Source of the DNA: Prevotella sp.
GTDB taxonomy: Bacteria > Bacteroidota > Bacteroidia > Bacteroidales > Bacteroidaceae
Direction: 5' to 3'
Assembly (NCBI GenBank): GCA_017458125.1
Contig: JAFTGB010000012.1
Location: 1 to 52,623 of the forward strand
DNA length: 52,623 bases
Of the stretch, positions 1,719-52,623 are shown piece by piece; positions within the stretch are counted from its first letter, which is position 1, and each line of letters starts with the position of its first letter. The notes below the pieces were generated by a model. It saw only the letters and a list, made by a program, of their open reading frames with translations, was not told where the DNA came from and searched no databases. Both the position numbers and the translations under genes were made by a program.

Positions 1719-2029
1719 GTTGCTCCTGCCATTTCAAGTGACTGCTCTTCACGGGCAAATTCTTCTTCTAATTCGTCAAACATTGCGTCACTGTCTTGGC
1801 CGAGTCCTAAGGCAGACTCATGTTCTGCTTGAGAAATACGAGCGTGAAGTTCTGCAGCGGTATATGGTTTAAGGGAAGATTCCACTTCGGCCGTTTTTAC
1901 GTCTTTGGCCACGGCAGTTCGCACACTATCTGCAAGCATGGTCACAAGTTCCAACTTCTGGCTGTCATCCATGTCTTTCACCAGATTCCAGTAGTGGTAA
2001 GTGCTGTATCGTCTCGTTGCTGTTTCCAT
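1715..2029 (-). CDS. Antitoxin partner of the ParE-like toxin
   Basis: 104 residues directly before and overlapping the toxin gene by 4 bp. The middle (DSQKLELVTMLADSV) resembles helical antitoxins, and the C-terminal half is very acidic (SDAMFDELEEEFAREEQS), as expected for the toxin-wrapping tail. I do not recognise the DNA-binding type with certainty. Expression starts from the leader at 2021-2137, whose inverted repeats are natural candidates for autorepression by the toxin-antitoxin complex. The start is fixed by the ATG in the duplicated leader. Confidence 0.75.
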   Translation of the reverse strand: METATRRYSTYHYWNLVKDMDDSQKLELVTMLADSVRTAVAKDVKTAEVESSLKPYTAAELHARISQAEHESALGLGQDSDAMFDELEEEFAREEQSLEMAGAT

Positions 2030-2137
2030 AATCGTCGTAGCTACTACGTCTTTCTTATACTATAAGACCGCCCGCTCACCCCTCAGGGCTAACAAGCGAT
2101 GCTGCAAAGATAGGGAATAAATTTGAAACGGCAAAGG
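2021..2137 (-). repeat. Duplicated promoter/leader unit, copy 2 (toxin-antitoxin promoter)
   Basis: Same unit as 1262-1378. The promoter is TTTG (2132-2135), a 19-bp spacer and TATCTTTG (2105-2112) on the minus strand. The palindrome nearest the start codon differs at its centre (CGTAG-CTA-CTACG instead of CGTAGC-T-GCTACG), so the outer arms remain complementary. CTTATA-C-TATAAG is unchanged. This is the expected operator/promoter of the antitoxin-toxin operon. Confidence 0.85.
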
Positions 2138-2260
2138 GATGCGGGTGATTTTTACCAGCACGCAACGGAAAAACATTAGCAACGGTGGCAAAAAAAGATT
2201 AGCGACGCTACCAAATTGGATTAGCCGATTTGGCAGTGTCGCTGACACACCCTCCAACAA

Positions 2261-5200
2261 CTATAAGGTTCTCAGGTTCTGAATGACGATGTTGTCGATA
2301 AGGTGCCGGCTGTTGTAGCGGCTCGACAGCACGTTGATGCCCTGAGCGTAAGGCGTCGTGCCGTCGGGCAGTTCGCGGGTGCCGGAGGCGAGGACGCTAC
2401 CGTTGCGGCGCTGTATCTGCCAGTCTACTGTCCGGGTGCCAACGTTGACGTCAAGGGCTATGGTGTACCACGTACCCACCGTGGGGACGAAGGTGTTGTT
2501 CGCATCGCCGTTGACGGCAAACACGCGGTCTGCGTTGAGCTGTGACAGGCAGAAGAGCCAGTGTGCGCCCGTATTGGCATACAGCTGGCTATTATTAACA
2601 GTCGGCTGGCTGTCCGTGAAGACGCACACCTCACTCGAATACTGGTTGTTGGCATTAGCCGCGAAGTTCCAGTCGAACTGCAGGTGGCAGGTGCCGCCAG
2701 CGGCGTTATCGTAGATGCCGGTACCCCAGGCGACGTAGGCGCTGCGGCCATTCTGGCTGCCACAAGTCATACTCAGACAACTGCCGGAGTCGTCACTCGC
2801 AATGGTCAGTCCTGCGGGATAGTTGGGCGACGTCCATCCGGCAGCGGCGGCATCGGCGACGCTCTCGAAGTCCTGCGTGTAAAGGGTGGTGGTCACGATA
2901 CCGCGGATGTTGCCCGTATGAATGATGTTGGCCACGCCGGTATAGTCCAGCACGTCGATGGTGCCGTTCTGGTCCACGTCGGCGGCATTCTCGTTGAAGT
3001 TCTCAGGGGTGTCGCCGTGGATGTAGTTGGCCAGTCCCGTATAGTCCAAGACGTCCACCGTGCCGTCGCTGTTGACGTCGCCCACCACGTAGTGCGCTCC
3101 CGACTCTGTGTAGAGCACGCCCTCGATGCGGAGGTTGCAGAAGCCTATCTGCTTGGTGTCGTCCAGATTGTAGACGTTCAGCCGCACGCCAAAGGTGCCC
3201 GTGCAGTTCTTAGCGCTGGCTATGTCCGTCGTCAGCACGGTGTAGTAGGGAGCGTGGGTGGTGCCGCCGCTCTCGTCGGCCGACCGTTCTGGCGTCACGC
3301 CGCTCAGCAGGGTGGTCGTCGTGCCGTCGTCGGCAACCCACTTCATGTCCACTGCTCCGCCGTTGGTACCGTAACGGCTGGCGTAGACGGTGACGCTGGT
3401 AGGCCGGAACTCGTAGCCTTCCTTCAACGTCACCATGAAGTTGACAGCATTGCCGTCAGTAGCGGCTGTAGTCTTTACCGTGGGTTGGAATGCCGTCTGC
3501 GTCTGGTTGGCACTGTTCTTCTTCGTGCCCGTGACGTTCAGTCCGTTACCCACCGTGACGCTGCTGGACCCGAAGTATTTGGGCTGGGCGAAGGTGGCGG
3601 TCTCATTGGCGACCTCCGTCCCCGACTCCAACGCCCAGCTGATGACGCCAGCGCCAATCTCCTGCGGCTGCAGCTCGTCGGCATCGTAGAAGACGGTCTC
3701 GTTGTCGGCGGCGCTGACGTCGATGGTGGTTGCCGCGTCGGGCAGGTAATAGCCTAAGTGCGGCGGCTGGTTGTATGAAGACATCTGCCAGACTATGCCT
3801 AAGCGGTAGACGTGGTCGGTCAGCAGGCAGGGCACCTTGTAGCCAGTAGGCATGGCCGAGGAATGGATGTAGAGATTGTTGTCGTCGTGCAGGATGACCT
3901 CCTCGCGCCAGTCGCCGAAAAGGTCGCATGACAGGTTGGGACTGCGCTTCGTCGTGTTGCACGACGAACCTTCAAGGGTAGCAACTGTCGTGAAGCTGCT
4001 GCCGTTCCAGTGGGTGATGCTGTAAGCCTCCGTGTAGCCTCCGTCGGCTAAGCAGTCCTGCAGCGTGCCGTCCCAGTAGAGACGGAAGTTCAGACTCGAC
4101 GACTTGGTGCTCACCACCTTTCCTGTGACGGCAGAGCGCTGCTGACGGTCGTTGCTCGACGAGAACTCGGAGCCGCGGTTGGCCTTGTTGAAGTCGCCAG
4201 CCATGCCGCGCCCGTTGTCTTCACTGCCCGCGGCACTGAACAGCACCTCGCCGGTACGGGCGTCGTGCAAGTCCCAGCCGTAGTTGTTGCCGCTGATTGT
4301 CTCCTCGTGCACATGAAACACCTCCAAGCCGGGACGGGCGGGGTTATGGTCGGCCACATGGATGGCGTCGCCATGGCCATAGCCCACGGCATACATCAGT
4401 TGTCCGTCGTCGTCGATGGCGGCCGAGCCGAAGGTGATTTCGTCCTTACCGTCGCCGTCGTAGTCGCCCACGCTGATGTTGTGGTTACCGTTGCCGTATG
4501 CGGTGTAGTGGCTGCCCTTACCGCTGGTGTTGCTGCTGTAGGTCTTGGTGGTCTTGGTCCAATTGGCATCGTAGTGCTCCACCTTCGTGTCGCTGACCGA
4601 GGCGTGCAGCCAGCGGTGCACCAACTTGCCACCGCTGAAGTCGACGGCCCAGAAGTAGGCGCGCGTGTAGTAGCCACGGTTGAAGATGGCCGTGGGGTTA
4701 GCATTCACGCCGTCAAGGTAGGCCACGCAAGCGTTGTAGCGCTCTGAGCGATTACCATAATTGTCACCCCAAAAGCTCTCAGAAGGATAGCTGCTCTCCT
4801 TATTGAACGCACCCGCGCGGTTGGGGTTATACCATATCGTGTGTATGGCTTCACCGGTCTGTCCGTTGAAGACGGTGAGGAACTCAGGGCCGGCAAGTAC
4901 ATGTCCGTTGCCATTGCGGTGGCTTGTGCTGTTGCTGACGCTCCTGATGTCGCTGTCGTCGGCAGCGGCGCTGACGTAGTTGCCCTTGCCGTCCTTGCTC
5001 CATGATGCCGTCTTGCACATCATCTCGGCCTTGCCGTCACCGTCGAAGTCGTAGACCAGAAACTGGGTGTAGTGGGCTCCGGCGCGGATGTTGGGGCCGA
5101 GGTTGACACTCCACAGGCGGGTGCCGTCCAACTTGTAGCAGTCGATGATGACGTTCGACGTCTTGCCGCTCTGCGAGTTGTCCTTCGAGTCGGCAGGGTC

Positions 5201-5641
5201 CCACTTGACAAACAGCTCCATCTGGCCGTCGCCGTCCACATCGCCTATCGAGACGTCGTTGGGCGTGTAGCTGCTGCTGTTGTTGTTGACCGTAGCGTCG
5301 GGCTTGGTCAGTGCTATCTTCAGAGCACCGTTGAAAGGCGTGGTCTCGGCCTGTTCGACAACCGTGGTGCCGTTGAGCACCTCTAACTTGTACGTGTCGG
5401 TAAGCTTGCTGGCCACGGGGAAGGTGTGCGACGTGCGACGAGTCTCCACCATCTTCACGCCGTTGCGGTAGAGGCGGTAGGTGTAGTTCTGCTCGCCGTC
5501 GAAGAAGCGCCACGACACGAACGTCGTATTGTCGTCGGTGTTGAAAGCCACGAGGGCACGGTTCAGCGTCTCCGTGGCATGGAGCGCTGACAGTGCCGTA
5601 AGGCAGGTGACTATGAGAATAGCCAGTCGTCTTATTTTCAT
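2261..5641 (-). CDS. Rhamnogalacturonan endolyase, PL11 family, with dockerin-like module
   Basis: 1126 residues with a signal peptide (about 1-22). Residues 24-635 form the PL11 lyase: a Fn3-like start, calcium-loop repeats DVDGDG (134), DFDGDG (198) and DYDGDG (393), the conserved WGDNYGNRSERY (291-302) and NRGYYTRAY (321-329), ending PPHLGYYLPD (626-635). PL11 enzymes cleave the rhamnose-galacturonate backbone of pectic rhamnogalacturonan I by beta-elimination. Residues 640-845 are an unassigned beta-rich region. Residues 852-907 contain two dockerin repeats (DVNSDGTVDVLDYTGLANYI and a second copy). 915-1126 looks like a beta-sandwich, possibly carbohydrate-binding. It is the last gene of the uronate operon, 85 bp after the transporter. 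Acts in the periplasm or outside the cell. Confidence 0.93.
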   Translation of the reverse strand: MKIRRLAILIVTCLTALSALHATETLNRALVAFNTDDNTTFVSWRFFDGEQNYTYRLYRNGVKMVETRRTSHTFPVASKLTDTYKLEVLNGTTVVEQAETTPFNGALKIALTKPDATVNNNSSSYTPNDVSIGDVDGDGQMELFVKWDPADSKDNSQSGKTSNVIIDCYKLDGTRLWSVNLGPNIRAGAHYTQFLVYDFDGDGKAEMMCKTASWSKDGKGNYVSAAADDSDIRSVSNSTSHRNGNGHVLAGPEFLTVFNGQTGEAIHTIWYNPNRAGAFNKESSYPSESFWGDNYGNRSERYNACVAYLDGVNANPTAIFNRGYYTRAYFWAVDFSGGKLVHRWLHASVSDTKVEHYDANWTKTTKTYSSNTSGKGSHYTAYGNGNHNISVGDYDGDGKDEITFGSAAIDDDGQLMYAVGYGHGDAIHVADHNPARPGLEVFHVHEETISGNNYGWDLHDARTGEVLFSAAGSEDNGRGMAGDFNKANRGSEFSSSNDRQQRSAVTGKVVSTKSSSLNFRLYWDGTLQDCLADGGYTEAYSITHWNGSSFTTVATLEGSSCNTTKRSPNLSCDLFGDWREEVILHDDNNLYIHSSAMPTGYKVPCLLTDHVYRLGIVWQMSSYNQPPHLGYYLPDAATTIDVSAADNETVFYDADELQPQEIGAGVISWALESGTEVANETATFAQPKYFGSSSVTVGNGLNVTGTKKNSANQTQTAFQPTVKTTAATDGNAVNFMVTLKEGYEFRPTSVTVYASRYGTNGGAVDMKWVADDGTTTTLLSGVTPERSADESGGTTHAPYYTVLTTDIASAKNCTGTFGVRLNVYNLDDTKQIGFCNLRIEGVLYTESGAHYVVGDVNSDGTVDVLDYTGLANYIHGDTPENFNENAADVDQNGTIDVLDYTGVANIIHTGNIRGIVTTTLYTQDFESVADAAAAGWTSPNYPAGLTIASDDSGSCLSMTCGSQNGRSAYVAWGTGIYDNAAGGTCHLQFDWNFAANANNQYSSEVCVFTDSQPTVNNSQLYANTGAHWLFCLSQLNADRVFAVNGDANNTFVPTVGTWYTIALDVNVGTRTVDWQIQRRNGSVLASGTRELPDGTTPYAQGINVLSSRYNSRHLIDNIVIQNLRTL

Positions 5642-5725
5642 ACAGACAATGATTACGATTTTCTGTTATAAAGACGCACCGGAAGGAGTATCCTTGACGG
5701 TGCGCTATATAATAAGGTGTAGTAA

Positions 5726-7180
5726 TTAGTCAAGCGTGATGGGCTTGTACTTCGGCACCAATGCCTTCATAATGCACCAGCCGATGAGGTAAGCTACGGC
5801 GCAGATGCAGAATACCACCATGTAGGCGGCAGGCTTGCCCTCGAAGCCGAAGAACGAGAAGGCAGCGCCCTGCTCGGCGGCCCAGTCGAAGAACTTACCG
5901 CTACCCAGGTTGATGCTCATGGAACCTAAGCCACCGGCCATGGTGCCCAGTCCGACAATGGTACCAATGGTGCTCTTGGGGAACATGTCGCCGACGGTCG
6001 AGAAGATGTTGGCCGACCAGGCCTGGTGTCCGGCACCGAGCAGACCGATGAGGATGGCAGGCCACCAGGCGCTGTAGGCACCGAGAGGCTGTGCAAACAG
6101 TCCGAGCACGGGGAAGCAGGCGAAGATGAACATGGCGCGCATGCGTCCTGCGTAGGGGTTCATGCCCTTCTGCTCCACAAAGTATTTGGGCAGGTAGCCA
6201 CCGCCGATGGAGAGCACCGTCACAATGAAGTAGAGGGTGAAGATGAGCAGGATGCCCATGGTAGAGTCGGAGGTGTAGCCGTACTGGTCAGAGAAGTAGG
6301 CGGGAGCCCAGAACAGGAAGAACCACCACACGCCGTCGGTCATGAACTTACCCACAAGGAACGACCACGTCTGCTTGTAGGTGAAGCACTTTAGGAACGG
6401 GATGGTCTTCTCCTCCTTCTGCTCGTCACGGTTCTGCGCCTCGGCCAGGTCGTTGTCTTGCTCGATGTAGTTGAGCTCGGCCTGGTTGACGCGCGGGTTC
6501 TTGGCAGGCTTCTCGTAGAGCCACATCCACAGACCCATCCAGATGAAGCCTAAGGCACCGATGATGATGAAAGCCATCTCCCAACCCCAGGCACGAGCCA
6601 GCAGGGGAATGGTGGCGGGAGCTGCCAAGGCACCTACCGAGGCACCGCTGTTGAAGATGGAGGTAGAGAAGGCACGGTCCTTCTTGGGGAAGTATTCGGC
6701 TGTGGCCTTGATGGCTGCAGGGAAGTTACCGGCCTCACCGACGGCGAGAATCAGACGGCAGCTCAGGAACAGCCATACCGAGATGGTGGCGATGGCCACG
6801 GCGGCATCGCTGCCAGCCTCCACCATGCGCAAAGCCTCGATAGAGTCATAGCCCTCGACTGTCATGGCCACCCAGCCGCAACCGGCGTGCAGCACAGCAC
6901 CAAGCGACCACACAAAGATAGCGATAAGGTAACCCTTCTTGGTGCCCATCCAGTCGATGAACTTACCGGCGAAGAGGTTGGCAATGGCATAGAACAGCGA
7001 GAACAGACCGGTAATCGTACCATAGTCACCGTCAGTCCAGTGGAACTCTGGGGCGATGAAGTCTTTCCAGGTTAGTGACAAGACCTGACGGTCCATGTAG
7101 TTAATCGTGGTTGCCAGAAAGAGCAGCGCACAGATGACCCAACGGAAGTTGGACATCTTGGTAGTTGTTATTGGTGTCAT
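5726..7180 (-). CDS. exuT: MFS hexuronate transporter (ExuT-like, ACS family)
   Basis: 484 residues with twelve hydrophobic segments. The opening FLATTINYMDRQVLSLTWK matches the first helix of anion:cation symporters of the hexuronate type (NYMDR at 27-31), and a large cytosolic loop near 235-260 separates the halves. Such carriers take up glucuronate and galacturonate, or related keto-uronates, with protons or Na+. It sits between kduI (13 bp away) and the PL11 lyase, so the cargo is probably an unsaturated or keto-uronate from pectin breakdown. A second Met at residue 9 is an alternative start. The substrate is inferred from context. Confidence 0.85.
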   Translation of the reverse strand: MTPITTTKMSNFRWVICALLFLATTINYMDRQVLSLTWKDFIAPEFHWTDGDYGTITGLFSLFYAIANLFAGKFIDWMGTKKGYLIAIFVWSLGAVLHAGCGWVAMTVEGYDSIEALRMVEAGSDAAVAIATISVWLFLSCRLILAVGEAGNFPAAIKATAEYFPKKDRAFSTSIFNSGASVGALAAPATIPLLARAWGWEMAFIIIGALGFIWMGLWMWLYEKPAKNPRVNQAELNYIEQDNDLAEAQNRDEQKEEKTIPFLKCFTYKQTWSFLVGKFMTDGVWWFFLFWAPAYFSDQYGYTSDSTMGILLIFTLYFIVTVLSIGGGYLPKYFVEQKGMNPYAGRMRAMFIFACFPVLGLFAQPLGAYSAWWPAILIGLLGAGHQAWSANIFSTVGDMFPKSTIGTIVGLGTMAGGLGSMSINLGSGKFFDWAAEQGAAFSFFGFEGKPAAYMVVFCICAVAYLIGWCIMKALVPKYKPITLD

Positions 7181-46448: not shown

Positions 46449-46601
46449 ATGACCATGCAAAGAATTTCCGTCTTCCTTATGCTACTGTCCGTGGCTCTGA
46501 CAAGGCATAGTGTTGCAGGAAATCCTCATTCATTAGGTTCCTGTTGCACAAAGCCTCCACCCGGCCCACTATTCACTTCTCACTATTCACTCTTCACTTA
46601 A
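46449..46601 (+). CDS. Possible 50-aa secreted peptide or gene remnant
   Basis: A short frame right after the EptA-like gene starts MTMQRISVFLMLLSVALTRHS, a plausible signal peptide, and continues NPHSLGSCC. It then ends within a 7-bp repeat array (TTCACTT, CTATTCAC type) that encodes the last residues and the stop. It could be a tiny secreted peptide or the truncated start of a gene destroyed by the repeat insertion. The end overlaps the end of the convergent LytTR gene. Confidence 0.25.
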   Translation: MTMQRISVFLMLLSVALTRHSVAGNPHSLGSCCTKPPPGPLFTSHYSLFT

Positions 46602-46608
46602 AACTTAA
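46565..46608. repeat. 7-bp repeat array between the EptA-like and LytTR genes
   Basis: Units CTATTCA, CTTCTCA, CTATTCA and CTCTTCA, covering the convergent gene ends. Confidence 0.8.
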
Positions 46609-47463
46609 AATGGCATCCCTGATGAGCGAGATTTTGCTTCTCGAAACAGGAATGCTTTCGGGGCAAAGCTTCATGACGAGTTGCATGCTTCCTGATTTGT
46701 AAATCACTTGATCTATTTGAGCGAGATTGACGAGGAAGGCGCGGTGACAGCGGACAATCATGGGATAGTCACGCAACTCTTCTTCTATCTGTTTGGAAGT
46801 GGCGCGGAGCATGTCGGCACGGACAGCCCCGTCACGAAGGTGATAGACCTTCACGTAGTTACCTACGGCCTCTATATATAAGAGGTCAGAGACCTGAAGC
46901 GTGACGGTCTCATTGGTTGTCCCGGTTAGAGTCAGATCTGCCGGGGCTGACGAAACAGGTGAGGGCTTTATTGCCTTCAACTGCTCATTCAGCAGTTTCG
47001 TTTCCGCCAGTTCTTCAGCCAGATAGCGGCTGCGGAACTTGAAGCGCCAGTAGAGCCCGATGGCAAAGGAGCAGAAGGCGATAATTAAAAGCGTCTCGAA
47101 GAAATTGCTCCATGAAAGGTGATTGGCAGGAATATGCCCGCTCATCACGAAATGGCGATAGAGACAAATCATCAGCGTCACCAGCAGGGTGTTGATAATC
47201 TGGAAGTACAGATTACGGCGAATGAAATAATCGACATCCCTACGACTATCGTCCATAGAAACGGGGTTGCGGACAAGATATTTCATCACGGCATCCGTCA
47301 ACATGCACACGACGACACCCAGCGCAAAGATACATGCCAGATGCATATAGCCCTGCCAATGCCATGCATCAAGTCCGAAGGGCTTGAATACGGCAAGGGC
47401 AAGTGTCGTAAAGGCAGTACTGACGACACGCATGCGGATGATCTCTTTCTGTCCTTGATCCAT
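46594..47463 (-). CDS. Membrane-bound LytTR-type transcription regulator
   Basis: 289 residues. Four hydrophobic helices (about 13-33, 38-60, 86-106, 120-140), then a short coiled coil (YLAEELAETKLLNEQLKAI) and a C-terminal LytTR DNA-binding domain (about 180-285: VSDLLYIEAVGNYVKVYHL ... MIVRCHRAFLVNLAQID). There is no receiver domain, so the sensing is likely done by the membrane part or a partner. LytTR proteins bind paired direct repeats about 21 bp apart; such a pair lies between this gene and the divergent LiaF-like gene. The promoter (TACTTTTG, 47471-47478) ends only 7 bp before the ATG, so either the mRNA is almost leaderless or Met12 (47430) is the start. Confidence 0.9.
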   Translation of the reverse strand: MDQGQKEIIRMRVVSTAFTTLALAVFKPFGLDAWHWQGYMHLACIFALGVVVCMLTDAVMKYLVRNPVSMDDSRRDVDYFIRRNLYFQIINTLLVTLMICLYRHFVMSGHIPANHLSWSNFFETLLIIAFCSFAIGLYWRFKFRSRYLAEELAETKLLNEQLKAIKPSPVSSAPADLTLTGTTNETVTLQVSDLLYIEAVGNYVKVYHLRDGAVRADMLRATSKQIEEELRDYPMIVRCHRAFLVNLAQIDQVIYKSGSMQLVMKLCPESIPVSRSKISLIRDAILSFK

Positions 47464-47470
47464 GATGTCG

Positions 47471-47478
47471 GCAAAAGT
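47471..47478 (-). promoter_or_regulatory. -7 box of the LytTR gene
   Basis: TACTTTTG on the minus strand, very close to the annotated start codon. Confidence 0.45.
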
Positions 47479-47545
47479 ACGAAGAAAAAGTGAAAAGGTA
47501 AGAGTGAAAAGAGAAAAATTTGCTACTGCTCGTCACTTTTACTGT

Positions 47546-47633
47546 CATTCATCACACTTTCATTACCATTCATCACATAATGATACAGAATATCCCAGAT
47601 ATTTGCACCTTCCAGCGATGCCACTTAACTTTG
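47546..47633 (+). promoter_or_regulatory. Regulated promoter P1 of the LiaF-like operon
   Basis: Contains, in order: CATTCATCACA at 47546 and again at 47567 (21 bp apart), CAGAATATCCCAGA at 47586-47599, the -33 TTTG at 47602-47605, a 20-bp spacer and the -7 box TAACTTTG at 47626-47633. The second CATTCATCACA, the CAGAATATCCCAGA block, the -33 and the -7 recur at identical spacing before the isochorismatase gene (51961-52027). The 21-bp spacing fits LytTR binding. A caveat is that 21 bp also equals three units of the local 7-bp repeats. Confidence 0.65.
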
Positions 47634-47671
47634 CACTCGCAATCATGCAAAACCATCAAATGTTTTAGGTT

Positions 47672-48235
47672 ATGAGAAGAAGAACTTTTATTGGCGTTAT
47701 TTTCATCGTGGCCGCTCTGTTGAAGTTGGCCACACTGTGGGGTATTCTCCAGTGGAGATGGTTTGAAACCATGTCGGAAGGCCGATGGGCCATGTACTTC
47801 GGCATATTCGTTTTGCTATATGTCGGTGTACATCTTGTTATCGACAGTTATCGTCGCGACCCAAGTCAATGGCTGCAGCGACCCATTCCACCTGCCGAAG
47901 AGGGAAAGCGCATCTGCTGTTCGGTCCACTATGGCGGCGACGAGTATATATATAAAGGTGAGCCGTTCCACGGAGCCCGACTTGATGCTTTCTGCGGAGG
48001 GCTTCGTCTGGACTTGCGCGAGGCTGTCATCACGGAGGATGAGGAGATAGACATCCACACCTTCATGGGTGGCGTGGAACTGATAGTGCCCGACTGGCTG
48101 AATGTCGAGACGAAAAGCCGCAGTTTCATCGGCGGTGTGGGCAATGAGACGAACCGCAACGTCAAGGACGGTGCGCCTACCCTGCACATTGTTGCCAGTA
48201 ATTTTCTTGGTAGTGTAAGTATAAAAAACAATTAG
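47672..48235 (+). CDS. LiaF-like membrane protein
   Basis: 187 residues. Two helices (about 6-26 and 40-60) come before a C-terminal beta-rich domain with the repeating pattern DAFCGGLRLDLREA, IHTFMGGVELIVP and SFIGGVGNETN, which is the LiaF/DUF2154 'cell wall-active antibiotic response' type. In Firmicutes LiaF restrains an envelope-stress sensor. Here it is divergent from a LytTR regulator, a pairing often seen in Bacteroidota, and it leads an operon with a beta-barrel protein and an ECF sigma factor. Confidence 0.85.
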   Translation: MRRRTFIGVIFIVAALLKLATLWGILQWRWFETMSEGRWAMYFGIFVLLYVGVHLVIDSYRRDPSQWLQRPIPPAEEGKRICCSVHYGGDEYIYKGEPFHGARLDAFCGGLRLDLREAVITEDEEIDIHTFMGGVELIVPDWLNVETKSRSFIGGVGNETNRNVKDGAPTLHIVASNFLGSVSIKNN

Positions 48236-48248
48236 GAAGTATAATAAT

Positions 48249-50687
48249 ATGAGAAGTATTGGTTTTAAGATGGCAACATTGATGACTGCCTTGATGAGCA
48301 CAATGACAGTGTATGCCAAGTCTCAAGACGTGGGTGGTAGAGTGATTAATGAGAATGGCCAGCCGATGCCCTATGTGAACGTGGTGCTGCTGTCGCTGCC
48401 TGACTCGGCCTTTGTGCAGGGTGCGATGACTGACGAGCAGGGTGTGTTTAAGATTGTGACAGATATAAGCGATGGTCTGTTCAAGGTGACTAGCGTGGGC
48501 TATCAGACCTTATATATAAACGCGGGCGAGGGGCTGACCATCCAGATGAAGGAGGAAGCCAAACTGCTCAGCGAGGTCGTGGTGAAGGGGCAATTGCCGA
48601 AGACGCATGTGAAAGGTGACGCCATGCGCACCACCGTCGCTGGTACGATACTGGAGAAAGCCGGAACCGTGAGCGATGCCTTAGGAAAGATTCCGTCGCT
48701 TGAGGCTGAGCGCGACGGTGGTGTGAAGGTGCTGGGGCGTGGCGATGCCGAAGTGTATATCAACGGTCGGCGGGTGCAGGACATGAAGGAACTCTCTCGC
48801 CTGCGCTCCGACCAGATTCAGCACGTCGATGTGGTGCAAAATCCCGGAGCCCGCTATGCCGCCTCGGTAAAGGCCGTCGTTCGCATCACGCTGAAAAAAG
48901 CACAGGGCGAGGGCCTGAGCTTTGAGGATAACCTCGGTGGCGTTTATCAGTATGGGCACACACTGACGAACAATCTGGATGTGAACTACCGAACTGGCGG
49001 TCTCGACATTACCGCCTCGCTGTGGGCTGGGCGCTACGGTCACTATAAGTCGTTGCAGGAGCATGAACTGACTTATTTTGTCGGTCCAGATTACATCGAG
49101 AGCAACAGCTCGCAGGAGTCGAAGGGCATCTGGAAGGGCTGGTCGCCTCAATTGCAGGTGAACTACATGGTGAATGAAAACCATAGTTTTGGTGCATTCT
49201 ACAAATACGACCGTCATCCGAGTAGTGACTACAATGGTATGATCTTTACAGACAATAACGAGAATGGTCAGTTCACGGAACATTCAGAGAGCCGTGTCTG
49301 GCAGGACGAGACTATCAGCAAACACATATTCAATGCCTACTATAACGGCAAGATAGGACAACTGGGTATTGACCTCAACGTGGATGGTCTTTTCGACGAC
49401 ACCAAGACGCCAGGCAGTACCACAGAGACGACAAAGGATGCCACAGGCGGCTCTACGGAGCGTAGCTTTGAGAGCAGCACCAACAGCGGAAACAACTTCT
49501 GGGCCACAAAACTCATCCTCTCCTATCCTGTATGGAAAGGTAATTTCTCTCTGGGTGGCGAATATAGCTATAACCATCGCACTGACTCCTACTCGTTTAC
49601 AGCCACCGACTATGTGCCTGTGAAAACCACCGACACAGAGATCAATGAGAAATCATCGGCCGCCTTCCTGGAGTATGGTCGTTCTTTTGGCAAAGTCTAT
49701 GCCCAGGTAGGACTGCGCTATGAACACCTGACAAACGACTACTTCAATTTTGGTAAAAAGGAGGATGAGGTCTGCCGCGACTATGGCGACTGGTTCCCTA
49801 CGGCAGTCATCTCTACCCCTGTAGGCAAGGCACAACTCTCGCTCTCTTACCGTCGTGACATCCAGCGTCCTAACTATGCTAATCTGACCAGTTCGACGGT
49901 TTATGTCAACCGCTATACTTACCAGAGCGGTAATCCATATTTATTGCCGACTTATACCCATAGTCTGGTGCTCAATGCTGCCTACAAATGGGCGAACCTG
50001 ATGCTGAACTATGGCCGTGTGAAGGATGCCCTCACTATGTCGACAGAACCTTTCCCAGGTTCAGAAGATCCCCTAGTCAGCCTTGTGCGTCCCATCAACA
50101 GCTGGGAGGATTACAACCAATTCAGCATCCAATTGTCTGCACGCCCCGTCATCGGCTGCTGGCATCCGGCATGGAGCGTCATCACCCAGATACAGGATTT
50201 CAAGGCACCGAGTGTGCGAGGGGAGAACGATGCTCGCATCAGTTCTCCCGAGCGTGAGGTGGCTCGACCTTCGGTCAAGTCGCCCACGGCTGTCGGCTCC
50301 ACCATTACGCTCAACCACCCTTGGTTCATTATCGGCTGGCAGAATGACATCGAATTGTCCCATGGTTTCCGCCTCAATGTCTCTGCCCAGTGGTATTCTA
50401 AAGGTGACTACAACAATTTCCGCATGACCAAGCCCCGTCTCTTCACCAACGTCGGACTGCAGCGCGACTTCAATCTGAAGCGCATGGGCACGCTGACCTT
50501 CGACCTCCGTTGTAGCGATCCCTTCCATACTAACAAGACGGATGCTATCGTCTACGGATACCGGGAGCTGACAACGCACAATCCTGCTCGTCGTACCTTC
50601 ACACTCGACCTTACCTGGAAGTTCAACGAGGCCCGCTCGAAATATCGCGGCTCTGGTGCCGGAGAGAAACAGAAGGCAAGAATGTAA
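48249..50687 (+). CDS. Outer-membrane beta-barrel protein with carboxypeptidase-like and plug domains
   Basis: 812 residues. Signal peptide about 1-25, a CarboxypepD-reg-like beta-sandwich (27-110: VGGRVINENGQPMPYVNVVL), a TonB-receptor plug (about 115-215: GTVSDALGKIPSLEAERDG, VYINGRRV) and a long barrel ending FTLDLTWKFNEAR. It belongs to the outer-membrane beta-barrel family of TonB-receptor relatives without a recognisable SusD partner. There is no SusD gene nearby, so glycan uptake is unlikely. It may move peptides or serve envelope stress signalling. Follows the LiaF-like gene by 13 bp. Confidence 0.9.
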   Translation: MRSIGFKMATLMTALMSTMTVYAKSQDVGGRVINENGQPMPYVNVVLLSLPDSAFVQGAMTDEQGVFKIVTDISDGLFKVTSVGYQTLYINAGEGLTIQMKEEAKLLSEVVVKGQLPKTHVKGDAMRTTVAGTILEKAGTVSDALGKIPSLEAERDGGVKVLGRGDAEVYINGRRVQDMKELSRLRSDQIQHVDVVQNPGARYAASVKAVVRITLKKAQGEGLSFEDNLGGVYQYGHTLTNNLDVNYRTGGLDITASLWAGRYGHYKSLQEHELTYFVGPDYIESNSSQESKGIWKGWSPQLQVNYMVNENHSFGAFYKYDRHPSSDYNGMIFTDNNENGQFTEHSESRVWQDETISKHIFNAYYNGKIGQLGIDLNVDGLFDDTKTPGSTTETTKDATGGSTERSFESSTNSGNNFWATKLILSYPVWKGNFSLGGEYSYNHRTDSYSFTATDYVPVKTTDTEINEKSSAAFLEYGRSFGKVYAQVGLRYEHLTNDYFNFGKKEDEVCRDYGDWFPTAVISTPVGKAQLSLSYRRDIQRPNYANLTSSTVYVNRYTYQSGNPYLLPTYTHSLVLNAAYKWANLMLNYGRVKDALTMSTEPFPGSEDPLVSLVRPINSWEDYNQFSIQLSARPVIGCWHPAWSVITQIQDFKAPSVRGENDARISSPEREVARPSVKSPTAVGSTITLNHPWFIIGWQNDIELSHGFRLNVSAQWYSKGDYNNFRMTKPRLFTNVGLQRDFNLKRMGTLTFDLRCSDPFHTNKTDAIVYGYRELTTHNPARRTFTLDLTWKFNEARSKYRGSGAGEKQKARM

Positions 50688-50703
50688 AATAGTTCCGTTT
50701 GGA

Positions 50704-50731
50704 TGTAATTATTTCGCCTTTTCTGCGACTA
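50704..50731 (+). promoter_or_regulatory. Possible ECF-type promoter before the sigma factor gene
   Basis: TGTAAT (50704-50709), 16 bp and CGACTA (50726-50731) resemble the GTAAC/CGTCTA pattern of ECF-dependent promoters, about 27 bp before the sigma gene. Autoregulation would follow. There is no TAnnTTTG box in this 70-bp gap. Confidence 0.35.
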
Positions 50732-50757
50732 ATAGGTCAAAAGGATTCAGTTGAACA

Positions 50758-51249
50758 ATGGAGACAAAAGAATTAGAGAAAGAATTCCTGATGATGATCG
50801 AGGCGCAGAAACGTACCATCTACAAGGTGTGCTACATCTATGCCAACGACCAGGACGACCTGAACGACCTGTATCAGGAGACGGTGCTCAACCTGTGGAA
50901 GAGTTTCCCCCGCTATCGGGGAGATAGCACACTCAACACATGGGTCTACCGCATCGCCATGAACACCTGTATCACGTTCCTCCGACGCTCCAATGCCCGC
51001 CCGCAGATTGTACCGATGACGGCTAATGTGGCAAGCATGGCAGCAGAAGACAACGAGACGGCAGGACAACTCAGGGAACTCTACCGACTCATCAGCCAAC
51101 TGGGGAAATTGGAACGCGCGCTGATTTTCCTCTGGCTGGAAGAACGGAGCTATGAGGAAATCGCCAACATCCTCGGCATCACTAAGACTAACGTCGCCGT
51201 GAAACTGAATCGCACCAAAGAGAAATTAAAGAAAATGTCGAACCGTTAA
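50758..51249 (+). CDS. ECF-type RNA polymerase sigma factor
   Basis: 163 residues. Region 2 is clear (DDLNDLYQETVLNLWKSF, then STLNTWVYRIAMNTCITFLRR), and region 4 has a helix-turn-helix (SYEEIANILGITKTNVAVKL). It redirects RNA polymerase to stress or uptake genes. No classical anti-sigma (FecR, zinc-type) follows. The next gene, 12 bp away, codes a four-helix membrane protein that may play that part. Confidence 0.93.
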   Translation: METKELEKEFLMMIEAQKRTIYKVCYIYANDQDDLNDLYQETVLNLWKSFPRYRGDSTLNTWVYRIAMNTCITFLRRSNARPQIVPMTANVASMAAEDNETAGQLRELYRLISQLGKLERALIFLWLEERSYEEIANILGITKTNVAVKLNRTKEKLKKMSNR

Positions 51250-51261
51250 ATTTGAATTGTT

Positions 51262-51870
51262 ATGGAACTTGAAGCATTGAAAGCCAGTTGGAACAAGCTC
51301 GATGAGCGTCTGGCAGAAATGGAAATTGTGAACCTTCGCGTGGTAAAGGAAGTGATTCAGCAGAAGACCAAGTCGGCCTATGATGGTATCATGGGACAGA
51401 ACATCTACAACTTCGTGATGAATATGCTCATCATCTGCGTGGTATTCCCGTATGTCTATATGAATACGCCCATCCAGGCCACCTCATTCGCTATCGTTGA
51501 GGGTGTGATGGTAATAGGACTGATTCCTCTGGTATGGAAACTCTCTCTGCTGTCGAAATTCGATCTGGGCGGCAAAAGCAGCCGCGAACTCAGCCGTTTG
51601 GTGCTCACTTACAAGAAGATCTGCCATCAGGAGAAGGTCTGGCTGATTGGTGCCGTATGCCTGGCGTTGATAGCTTTTTACATCCTAGAGTTGGGATTCA
51701 ACACGAAAGCAGGCTACGAGTATAGTACAAGATTGTTGTTGCCTCTCGGACTCTCATTGCTCACCTTTGGTCTCGGTCTTGTCTTTGCCAAATGGCAGCT
51801 TCGCCGCCACACCCAGCAGATTCAGGAGATAGAGTGCGGGCTGGAGGAACTCCGTGAGTTCGAGAAATAA
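51262..51870 (+). CDS. Four-helix membrane protein downstream of the sigma factor, candidate anti-sigma
   Basis: 202 residues. A cytosolic amphipathic N-terminal helix (ELEALKASWNKLDERLAEME) comes first, then four hydrophobic helices (about 48-68, 72-92, 128-148, 155-177) and a charged C-terminal tail (QIQEIECGLEELREF). I recognise no family. The position directly after an ECF sigma gene and the charged N-terminal helix fit a role in holding the sigma factor at the membrane, but this is inference from position. Confidence 0.75.
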   Translation: MELEALKASWNKLDERLAEMEIVNLRVVKEVIQQKTKSAYDGIMGQNIYNFVMNMLIICVVFPYVYMNTPIQATSFAIVEGVMVIGLIPLVWKLSLLSKFDLGGKSSRELSRLVLTYKKICHQEKVWLIGAVCLALIAFYILELGFNTKAGYEYSTRLLLPLGLSLLTFGLGLVFAKWQLRRHTQQIQEIECGLEELREFEK

Positions 51871-51923
51871 TAAATATCATACTTTGTTTGTATGATTGTT
51901 AATATTTAGTTAGAGTAAGAAAA

Positions 51924-51950
51924 CAGCACTCGTCGCGATGACGGGTGCTG
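51924..51950 (+). terminator. Hairpin after the sigma/membrane-protein genes
   Basis: CAGCACTCGTC, GCGAT loop and GACGGGTGCTG form an 11-bp stem with one G-U pair. It is followed by CATTATTAG rather than a T run, so termination may be weak. Part of its stem (CACTCGTC) repeats in promoter P2 33 bp further on. Confidence 0.5.
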
Positions 51951-51960
51951 CATTATTAGC

Positions 51961-52027
51961 CACTCGTCACAGAATCATGCAGAATATCCCAGAAATTTGC
52001 AATAATCCGCTAGTATCAGTAATTTTG
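51961..52027 (+). promoter_or_regulatory. Regulated promoter P2 of the isochorismatase-like gene
   Basis: CACTCGTCACA (51961), then 8 bp, CAGAATATCCCAGA (51980-51993), the -33 TTTG (51996-51999), a 20-bp spacer and TAATTTTG (52020-52027). Every element and spacing matches P1 at 47567-47633, so the two promoters likely share an activator. Confidence 0.65.
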
Positions 52028-52053
52028 CAGCGTCAAACTTAATAAATGAAGAT

Positions 52054-52542
52054 ATGCAAACAAAAGCACTTGTCGTTATCGACATTCAGAACGACATCAC
52101 CAAGCACTATCGAGACATCATCGAGAACATCAATGCTGCCATTGAATGGGCTGTGGCTGAGCGCCTGCACATTGTCTATATCAAGCATAATAACACCACA
52201 GCAGGCACGCGAACGTTCAAACCTGGTAGCAAAGGCGAGGAACTGGTGCCTGAATTGAAGGTCGTGTCAGACAATATCTTCGTGAAGACGAAAAGCAATG
52301 CCCTCACGAGTGAGGCTTTTTCTGCTTTCATCACAACGAACGATATTAATGAGTTCTACGTGGCAGGTGCTGACGCTACCGCTTGTGTGAAATCGACGTG
52401 TTTCAATATGACTAAAGCTGGATACACGGTGCATGTCCTCTCCGACTGTATCACCAGCTATGATCTGAAAAAGTTGCCAGAGATGTTAGCCTATTACGAA
52501 AGCAAAGGCTGTGATATAAAGGAATTCATATGGATAAAATGA
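52054..52542 (+). CDS. Isochorismatase-family cysteine hydrolase
   Basis: 162 residues. Catalytic residues of the family are visible: D10 in LVVIDIQND, K78 in IFVKTKSNALTS and C111 in AGADATACVKST. Members hydrolyse small amides or vinyl ethers (nicotinamide, isochorismate, others), and the substrate cannot be told here. Its promoter shares a special upstream block with the LiaF-like operon, which suggests membership of the same stress regulon. The end overlaps the DUF3795 start. Confidence 0.9.
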   Translation: MQTKALVVIDIQNDITKHYRDIIENINAAIEWAVAERLHIVYIKHNNTTAGTRTFKPGSKGEELVPELKVVSDNIFVKTKSNALTSEAFSAFITTNDINEFYVAGADATACVKSTCFNMTKAGYTVHVLSDCITSYDLKKLPEMLAYYESKGCDIKEFIWIK

Positions 52543-52623
52543 TTGGATATTGTGGCATTAACTGTGAGAAATGTGAAGCTCGCATTGCCACTGTTAGAGA
52601 TGATGACAACATGCGTGAAGAGG
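52539..52623 (+). CDS. DUF3795 protein, N-terminus (cut by window edge)
   Basis: The frame opens at 52530 (MDKMIGYCGINCEKCEARIA). The ATG at 52539 overlaps the previous stop and matches the family start, so I prefer it. The cysteine pattern YCG.NCEKCEA is the DUF3795 signature, a small cysteine-rich protein of unknown role, possibly metal-binding. Only about 28 residues are in the window. Confidence 0.75.
   Translation, partial: MIGYCGINCEKCEARIATVRDDDNMREE

Follow-up and report, generated by a model that had tools for sequence, protein, structure and literature searches.

Which protein reads a block of sequence that two promoters of one bacterial genome have in common, and what does that protein control? 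The question is raised by a stretch of 52,623 nucleotides of Prevotella sp. (contig JAFTGB010000012.1 of assembly GCA_017458125.1, positions 1 to 52,623), which we will call the window. Towards its end there is a gene for a LytTR regulator on the minus strand, followed on the plus strand by the promoter P1, genes for a LiaF-like protein, an outer-membrane barrel, an extracytoplasmic function (ECF) sigma factor and a 202-aa protein, a hairpin, the promoter P2, a gene for an enzyme of the isochorismatase family (ISC) and the beginning of a gene for a DUF3795 protein. An earlier note on this DNA had proposed that a shared multi-part promoter joins these genes in a small envelope-stress regulon. 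We consider it likely that P1 and P2 are the output promoters of one LytTR/LiaF-like sensory system that activates a small regulon. The host is a rumen Prevotella whose genome (3,372,008 bases in 86 contigs) is 88% complete; close named relatives, judged by the LytTR protein, are metagenome-assembled genomes of Prevotella or Prevotellaceae, for example Prevotella sp. UBA2456 (locus L004), at 96%.

The operator at P1 and P2

The shared element, which we will call the operator, is CATTCRTCACA-N8-CAGAATATCCCA-N4-TTTG, and in the genome it is found at P1 (47567) and at P2 (51961), on the plus strand in both cases. At P1, half-site A is CATTCATCACA (47567..47577), seen in the sequence, in relatives and as a profile match. 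After 8 bp comes CAGAATATCCCAGA (47586..47599), a block that includes half-site B (TATCCC). Two base pairs, TA, lead from there to the promoter core (47602..47633), made up of TTTG (47602-47605), 20 bp and TAACTTTG (47626-47633). P2 has CACTCGTCACA as its half-site A (51961..51971; sequence and profile match), again 8 bp, CAGAATATCCCAGA with half-site B (51980..51993), the two bases AA and a core (51996..52027) of TTTG (51996-51999), 20 bp and TAATTTTG (52020-52027). From the first block through TTTG, 33 of 39 bases are the same at the two promoters. Direct reading confirms the common order and spacing described in the earlier note, save for the 2 bp before TTTG, which its formula lacked.

P1 has more than this. 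A second CATTCATCACA lies at 47546..47556 (plus strand), 21 bp upstream of the core copy, just as the earlier note had said, and TCGTCAC at 47530..47536 (plus strand) is the half-site nearest to the LytTR gene. The sequence CAGAATATCCC, which had been taken as a block in its own right, is better described as resembling a fourth half-site, since its TCCC stands 20 bp from TCAC. The half-site elements of P1 begin at 47530, 47549, 47570 and 47591. By analogy, this array is a row with two-turn spacing of the kind bound by LytTR proteins, which, according to the passages of PMC6193735 on which we draw here and below, bind 9-bp repeats with spacers of mostly 12 bp.

Of the proposed multi-part promoter signature, the upstream operator stands and the remainder does not. 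TTTG-N20-TAnnTTTG is the ordinary Bacteroidetes promoter; it is a generic core and not a signature, and we give it no weight as evidence. The same layout is used for promoters in PMC6193735.

How specific is the operator? The 14-mer CAGAATATCCCAGA, with at most one mismatch allowed, occurs twice in the genome, exactly in both cases, at P1 and P2 (reversed control, 0). TCRTCACA-N8-CAGAATATCCCA with at most three mismatches has the same two places and no others (control, 0), and a tandem of CAYTCRTCACA at 21 bp, again with at most three mismatches, is found once, at P1. We also used a profile, R1, of 76 positions, made from 52 of 57 non-redundant related promoters (L031, L039, L050, L055 and L078 were omitted) after removal of the window and its near copies L004, L005, L006 and L010. 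On the host genome R1 gives P2 57.2 bits and P1 56.7 bits. The third match has 25 bits and covers profile positions 29-76 only, which is the generic promoter part; of the 137 matches at E <= 10, all but P1 and P2 are weak and lie mainly on that part. A looser count, requiring 20 of 27 fixed bases, adds one minus-strand place, at 52573 within the DUF3795 coding sequence, that looks like chance. There are two and only two operators in the 88% complete genome; because of that degree of completeness, further sites in its missing parts are possible.

The operator is also conserved in relatives. We fetched 80 named loci (L numbers) by means of the LytTR protein; four were too short, and 76 had at least 100 bp upstream. 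The operator precedes the gene divergent from LytTR in 65 of the 76 (at least 20 of 27 fixed bases, where one base-shuffle per locus gave 17 at best). Eight of the remaining 11 have it elsewhere in the stretch, before LiaF, barrel or ECF genes, and in L052, L059 and L068 it was not found in the stretch examined. P. communis (L029), a rumen species that can be cultivated, is also a carrier of the system. The reversed pattern has no match in about 1.1 Mb of relatives' loci. Since the operator is conserved in this way and is not scattered through the genome, neither of the two sequence objections that the earlier note had raised against its own proposal holds.

The conservation also shows a phasing of the half-sites. 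Among the 52 non-redundant promoters, themselves picked with the motif, no variation is seen in TCAC (half-site A), in T-T--C of TATCCC (half-site B), in TTG or in TTTG; TCAC, most of TATCCC, TTG and TTTG reach at least 90%, and the spacer columns vary and stay below this. TATCCC begins 21 bp after TCRTCAC in 61 of the 65 P1-type loci (20 bp from TCAC to TCCC). An extra half-site word occurs at -20 to -22 in 42 of the 65 and at -39 to -42 in 28, where about 0.16 such words would be expected per three positions.

The LytTR gene appears to have a promoter of its own in the same region. Its putative -7 element is TACTTTTG (47472..47479, minus strand), 8 nt before the start codon. Because T[AG]nnTTTG lies within 30 nt of the start of the LytTR match in 62 of the 65 loci, the region between LytTR and P1 probably works as a promoter in both directions; only 23 of the 65 have a TTTG another 18-21 bp upstream of this -7 element. 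The distance itself deserves a remark. A TAnnTTTG only 8 nt before the start (47463-47479 in the window, and the same place in 38 of the 65 loci) suggests a leaderless or near-leaderless LytTR mRNA.

Distribution and cargo in the genus

If the LytTR protein reads the operator, the two should occur in the same genomes. We scanned 200 genomes of the genus (G numbers) with R1 at E <= 1e-8, a search whose filters may miss some weak matches, and obtained 213 sites in 77 of the 200, with 1-9 per genome. A pattern with three mismatches was rejected as too loose, being positive in 121 of 200 genomes with its control also matching in some, and the profile was used instead. LytTR orthologues were accepted at E <= 1e-40, where the lowest identity kept was 48%; matches of at most 36% identity were dropped (G015, G048, G130, G176). 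The operator is present in 54 of the 57 genomes with an orthologue vs 23 of the 143 others (p = 1.5e-26). Part of this co-occurrence is explained by linkage: among 150 listed of the 213 sites, a divergent operator lies within 500 bp of 44 of the 57 LytTR matches. The carriers were therefore recounted at two or more sites. At least two are found in 41 of the 57 carriers vs at least one in 23 of the 143 remaining genomes (p = 8e-14). Regions were fetched for 101 of the 119 listed genus sites that had no locus, and four of the other 18 were covered later (one in G081, two in G157, one in G136). The same contigs occur in both sets (L006/G035, L008/G086, L009/G127), so that named loci and genus genomes are not independent.

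Does the isochorismatase gene belong to the regulon, as the earlier note proposed? Of the 200 genomes, 20, that of the window among them, have an ISC orthologue (E <= 1e-30), and all 20 carry the operator vs 57 of the 180 others (p = 9e-10). In 14 of 21 ISC places, the window included, the available upstream DNA (up to 1.5 kb) has an operator on the same strand. The operator is immediately followed by ISC in G131, G196 and G083, by coordinates also in G095, and ISC is inside the P1 gene row in L032 and L060, as well as in L049 if one reverse-strand frame is counted as spurious. Membership of ISC in the operator regulon is supported by these distributions, because every genome with ISC has the operator and because ISC sits in the P1 row of L032 and L060. 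As for DUF3795, which the earlier note had included with a "perhaps", its gene comes after ISC in G131, and in L203 it is the gene that the tally described below assigns to the operator. In L317 (5555-6526) a protein that combines GyrI-like/Cass2 and glyoxalase/bleomycin-resistance domains directly follows ISC.

The genes behind the operator, which we will call cargo, are varied, both in Prevotella and in other Bacteroidales, and some of their proteins are lipid- or envelope-related. Taking the longest ATG frame that starts within 600 nt of each site, 134 distinct sites gave 133 genes: 31 LiaF-like, 27 barrel (one G019 gene being counted three times because of overlapping scan positions), 32 of a GNAT/CAT group, six ABC transporter, five of another GNAT, five M13 peptidase, and the rest three or fewer each. 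The 32 consist of 21 GNAT with a zinc ribbon, six CatA-like, four another GNAT and one other GNAT. Representatives matched in Pfam or NCBIfam include the GNAT with zinc ribbon, CatA-like O-acetyltransferase family 2 (304.8 bits, cut-off 250), M13, M28 and S41 peptidases, and transglutaminase-like, flavodoxin-like, AAT/choloylglycine hydrolase, alpha/beta hydrolase, DUF418, acyltransferase 3 and AlkZ-like families. In or near longer rows we met the Beta-lactamase2 family, the glyoxalase/bleomycin-resistance fold, GyrI-like/Cass2, PhzF, CDP-alcohol phosphatidyltransferase, phospholipid methyltransferase and BamE. When whole rows are tallied instead (gaps up to 250 bp, first gene within 450 bp; 80 named and 12 fetched loci), 224 genes include 42 LiaF, 42 barrel, 33 GNAT, 15 CAT, six ISC and five ECF, with 56 unassigned. 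Such a set suggests that harmful small molecules are modified and the envelope is maintained, rather than a response to envelope stress alone. The name envelope-stress regulon is therefore only partly apt, since much of the relatives' cargo resembles enzymes of small-molecule or antibiotic modification.

Exchange of promoter-headed blocks

The earlier note had argued from the unconserved sequence between the blocks that the likeness of P1 and P2 reflects function rather than duplication. This is a false choice, because blocks headed by the promoter are also exchanged between genomes. From 51958 onward the rest of the window, with P2, ISC and DUF3795, forms one BLAST stretch with G131, 95.7% identical over 667 bp; elsewhere the LytTR, LiaF and barrel stretches of the two reach 68-73% and the housekeeping gene tpiA 81.9%. 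Base by base, near-identity starts at 52022, within the -7 element of P2 (527/539, 98%), whereas only 32 of 39 operator bases and nine of 20 spacer bases agree. From this we conclude that the ISC block has been exchanged with a joint inside the promoter, because near-identity starts in the -7 element while operator and spacer diverge. In comparison with G031, identity is 88% from the barrel across the ECF and 202-aa genes and P2, and it ends at 52048, short of ISC; what the P2-equivalent promoter of G031 heads is a transglutaminase-like gene. GNAT genes stand behind a P2-like site in L006 and L009. L008 has two copies of the window's P1, and between them a 280-aa gene that matches no known family. 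The copy on the LytTR side matches upstream (92-94%, -300 to -100) and not downstream, and the copy on the LiaF side matches downstream (90-93%) and not upstream. The block of LytTR, LiaF and barrel moves as well, since in L009 (G127) it is 91% identical to that of the window vs 76.3% for tpiA.

A comparison of the flanks of 125 distinct sites, in which strong means at least 80% identity over at least 400 bp, extends these cases. Among 65 pairs with strong upstream homology, 23 have no detectable homology downstream (these rest on 20 sites), and 43 of 96 pairs with strong downstream homology have none upstream (32 sites). For 12 of the 23 and 25 of the 43, the break falls in the range from -60 to +100 relative to the start of the site. 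An initial idea that homology breaks exactly at the promoter was rejected on this recount. Against the promoter as the joint stand the other 11 of 23 and 18 of 43 pairs, whose breaks lie 60-180 bp upstream or 100-430 bp downstream; L069 and L082, for example, part 180 bp downstream, and L042 and L047 are alike to about +150. What the alignments show is that promoter-headed blocks have been exchanged between genomes, with the promoter as a frequent joint and not the sole one. Copies of the promoter may themselves take part in the exchange.

A more speculative suggestion can be made here. The regulated LytTR promoter might be at once the switch and the homology joint of a cassette system without a dedicated integrase, in which cargo is inserted, split off or swapped between promoter copies. 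The clearest cassette-like cases are L008, with promoter copies flanking an inserted gene, the ISC block shared with G131, and G031 with a different gene behind P2. We regard this only as a tentative possibility. If it is true, incoming cargo would at once come under the control of the resident membrane sensor, and the enzymes often found in it, namely acetyltransferases, hydrolases and peptidases, could render toxic small molecules harmless.

Gene row, mechanism and alternatives

The LytTR regulator gene (46594..47463, minus strand) encodes 289 aa, in which hydropathy and an alignment of 32 rows indicate four hydrophobic segments followed by the LytTR DNA-binding domain (PF04397, 2.8e-15). 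All further genes are on the plus strand. The LiaF-like membrane protein of 187 aa (47672..48235) has two hydrophobic segments by hydropathy and then a LiaF-like C-terminal domain (PF09922, 5.7e-08). It is followed by the outer-membrane beta-barrel protein of 812 aa with a carboxypeptidase-regulatory-like N-terminal domain (48249..50687; PF14905, 4e-58), the ECF sigma factor of 163 aa (50758..51249; PF04542/PF08281, TIGR02937) and a membrane protein of 202 aa with about four hydrophobic regions by hydropathy (51262..51870) and no Pfam or NCBIfam family over the cut-off; by its position it is a candidate partner of the ECF factor. Between this row and P2 lies a hairpin with an 11-bp stem and no T run (51924..51950, plus strand; fold of 51871-51965, z = -3.37), possibly the end of the P1 transcript, though not included in the terminator-like matches of a consensus scan; consensus promoter and terminator scans gave counts near the shuffle mean. 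The centre of the hairpin carries CGTCGCGATGACGGG, and a similar sequence is found downstream of P1 in L067. ISC (52054..52542, 162 aa) has an isochorismatase-fold domain (PF00857, 2.7e-28) and no NCBIfam family over the cut-off, its matches to biuret hydrolase, nicotinamidase and YcaC being far below. The DUF3795 gene starts at 52530 and is truncated at the window end (52530..52623); its 31 residues score 23.8 bits for PF12675 against a cut-off of 22.6, and its DNA is 92.7% identical over 96 bp to L203, whose gene is a DUF3795 gene at 4.3e-17.

How might these parts work together? The membrane-anchored LytTR protein would bind half-sites about 20 bp apart, that is, two turns, just upstream of the -33 element. 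Either LytTR would sense a signal itself, or the LiaF-like protein would hold it at the membrane until the signal comes. On the signal, LytTR would activate P1, and with it the LiaF-like protein (perhaps as feedback or inhibitor), the barrel, the ECF factor and the 202-aa protein. It would also activate P2, yielding the isochorismatase-family enzyme and the DUF3795 protein, and other P2-type promoters would yield cargo. The signal would most likely be chemical or envelope damage. LytTR binding, activation, the role of LiaF and the nature of the signal are what we infer from arrangement and likeness; activation is favoured over other modes because the operator adjoins the -33 element and because of the parallel with the LytTR regulatory systems (LRS) of Streptococcus mutans discussed below.

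Several observations weigh against this proposal. P2 has the core half-site pair without the longer row of P1, and 21 of the 65 P1-type sites have no extra half-site word at either place. At 20 of 27 bases, four of 87 forward matches are chance-like (L043, L072, L075 and 52573 minus in the window), and the rows of R1 were selected by the motif itself. The unit of the co-occurrence counts is a genome and not an independent event. There is no LytTR orthologue in 23 of the 77 operator-positive genomes, seven of which are at least 93% complete (G049, G059, G079, G081, G130, G157, G177); G059 and G081 have no LytTR match even at 1e-8, and no LytTR-domain match stands alongside the operator sites inspected in G049, G059, G081 and G157. 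Conversely, the LytTR-positive genomes G040, G069 and G188 have no site at E <= 1e-8, G188 having a match to a pattern with two mismatches. The host genome encodes two further LytTR-domain proteins.

The orphan sites in particular invite another explanation, namely that a different factor reads the operator, either another LytTR protein or an unlinked regulator, and that the LytTR gene beside P1 is merely a fellow target. The two further LytTR-domain proteins of the host could be such readers, and the seven near-complete genomes without orthologue each have 3-9 other LytTR-domain matches. On the other side, LytTR and operator still co-occur when one site per LytTR carrier is discounted, and orphan sites in G059, G157 and G049 head the usual cargo families, as arrived blocks or lost regulators would have it: GNAT in G059, GNAT and CAT in G157 and a transglutaminase-like gene in G049, where one operator site has no known cargo near it; in G081 ECF genes follow. 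Orphan sites fit regulator loss or the arrival of promoter-headed blocks, and a second reader of the motif is possible, but as an account of the whole system we find a different reader unlikely. Still less probable is that P2 came with a foreign block and is merely constitutive, so that its likeness to P1 would reflect exchange and not joint regulation. ISC and DUF3795 do lie in the block held in common with G131. The near-identity begins inside the -7 element, however, and the P2 operator differs from that of G131 at seven of 39 positions and the spacer at 11 of 20. An operator that differs while the block downstream is near-identical has been kept by more than recent copying, and the conserved operator columns against variable spacer columns in the motif-chosen promoters speak in the same direction.

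It could also be asked whether the reader is the operon's own ECF sigma factor, which would then recognise the shared sequence as a promoter. ECF genes follow the operator in the window, L025 and L307, and 14 of 17 genomes with an ECF orthologue (at least 70% identity) are operator-positive (p = 1.5e-4), which would equally be expected of a target. The downstream half of the sequence is, however, an ordinary TTTG/TAnnTTTG promoter, and 63 of the 77 operator-positive genomes have no orthologue of this factor. For the latter reason the ECF factor was rejected as motif reader; it is a target rather than a reader, and we hold the opposite to be very improbable. Hardly any credence is left for the block being an extended element of strong housekeeping promoters. 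Its place directly upstream of the -33 element would suit such an element, but just two full-length matches in the genome do not, and on that ground the idea was rejected.

Some features of relatives may be recorded here. L307 (G081, about 1924-6530), from a genome without LytTR orthologue, has two operator-like sites (scores 36 and 38) flanking a barrel gene; one heads a gene of sigma-70 ECF type, the other an ECF gene with 44% identity to that of the window. L308 (G157) has three operator copies in 4 kb; two are nearly alike over the 45 bp upstream, as if part of the region had been duplicated, and the third, a weaker copy, lacks the usual promoter behind it. Internal stops occur in one LytTR copy (G034:C32:39556-40464) and in ECF matches of G055, G074, G110, G112, G154, G171, G177 and G194.

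Related systems exist in other organisms. In Bacteroides, LRS-like operons (Btheta7330_RS19920/RS19915, and B. ovatus) encode a LytTR regulator containing transmembrane segments and, as its partner, a membrane protein of the DUF2154 family (Zou et al. 2018, PMC6193735). The system described here has the same protein pair, a transmembrane LytTR and a DUF2154/LiaF-type protein (PF04397 and PF09922), and likewise direct repeats just upstream of a Bacteroides-type promoter. In the operons as that paper describes them, however, the membrane-protein gene lies upstream of the regulator gene in one operon, whereas here the two genes are divergent, and their membrane protein also carries an NfeD-like domain, unlike our LiaF-like protein. 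Their repeats, TCCGGTATTCA-11-ACCGGAAATCA, are 11 bp long with an 11-bp spacer and lie 11 bp from the promoter; here the half-sites are CATTCRTCACA and AGAATATCCCA, with starts 19-21 bp apart and the last about 4 bp from TTTG. The regulon here also reaches other transcription units with varied cargo, unlike those operons as described. Because gene order, repeat sequence and geometry differ though the protein pair is common, we file the system as a variant of the Bacteroides LRS-like operons and not as a member.

The LRS of S. mutans (HdrRM, BrsRM) provide a second comparison, again as far as they are described in PMC6193735. There, LytTR repeats upstream of -35 and positive autoregulation have been reported. 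Common to both are a LytTR protein with a membrane partner, direct repeats that recur about every 20-22 bp and adjoin the promoter on its upstream side, and multiple targets, which in S. mutans include the promoters of bacteriocin genes. The S. mutans regulator is soluble and is encoded upstream of its inhibitor in the same operon; ours has four hydrophobic segments before the LytTR domain, and the genes are divergent, also in loci where LiaF is called beside LytTR. Inhibition and positive feedback were tested experimentally in S. mutans, and here they are putative.

Two more distant parallels can be mentioned. LiaFSR is a cell-envelope stress system, and the LiaF-type C-terminal domain is shared with it; among the six locus proteins scanned there is neither a LiaS-type kinase nor a LiaR-type response regulator (no histidine kinase or receiver). 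Chromosomal integron cassette arrays carry exchangeable cargo rich in acetyltransferases and small-molecule-modifying enzymes. The cargo here is likewise exchangeable and rich in acetyltransferases, and it includes a protein with a match to Cass2, the Pfam family named "integron-associated effector binding protein". Unlike integron cassettes, the transcription units here carry their own regulated promoter, and general Pfam scans of 55 cargo and neighbour proteins of relatives, with no search aimed at integrases or attC sites, found no recombinase. Literature searches of open-licence PMC papers returned no description of the regulon, of its cargo or of the exchange of promoter-headed blocks.

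What would the system mean for these bacteria? If correct, our reading gives rumen Prevotella, abundant and little studied, a defined sensory regulon with a readable operator, and because this operator is so specific (two full-length matches in 3.4 Mb), such regulons can be listed genome by genome. The LytTR/LiaF-like systems of Bacteroidales would no longer be autoregulated operons alone but would include multi-gene regulons, and the case would show a conserved promoter type that collects and exchanges detoxification-like genes under one control.

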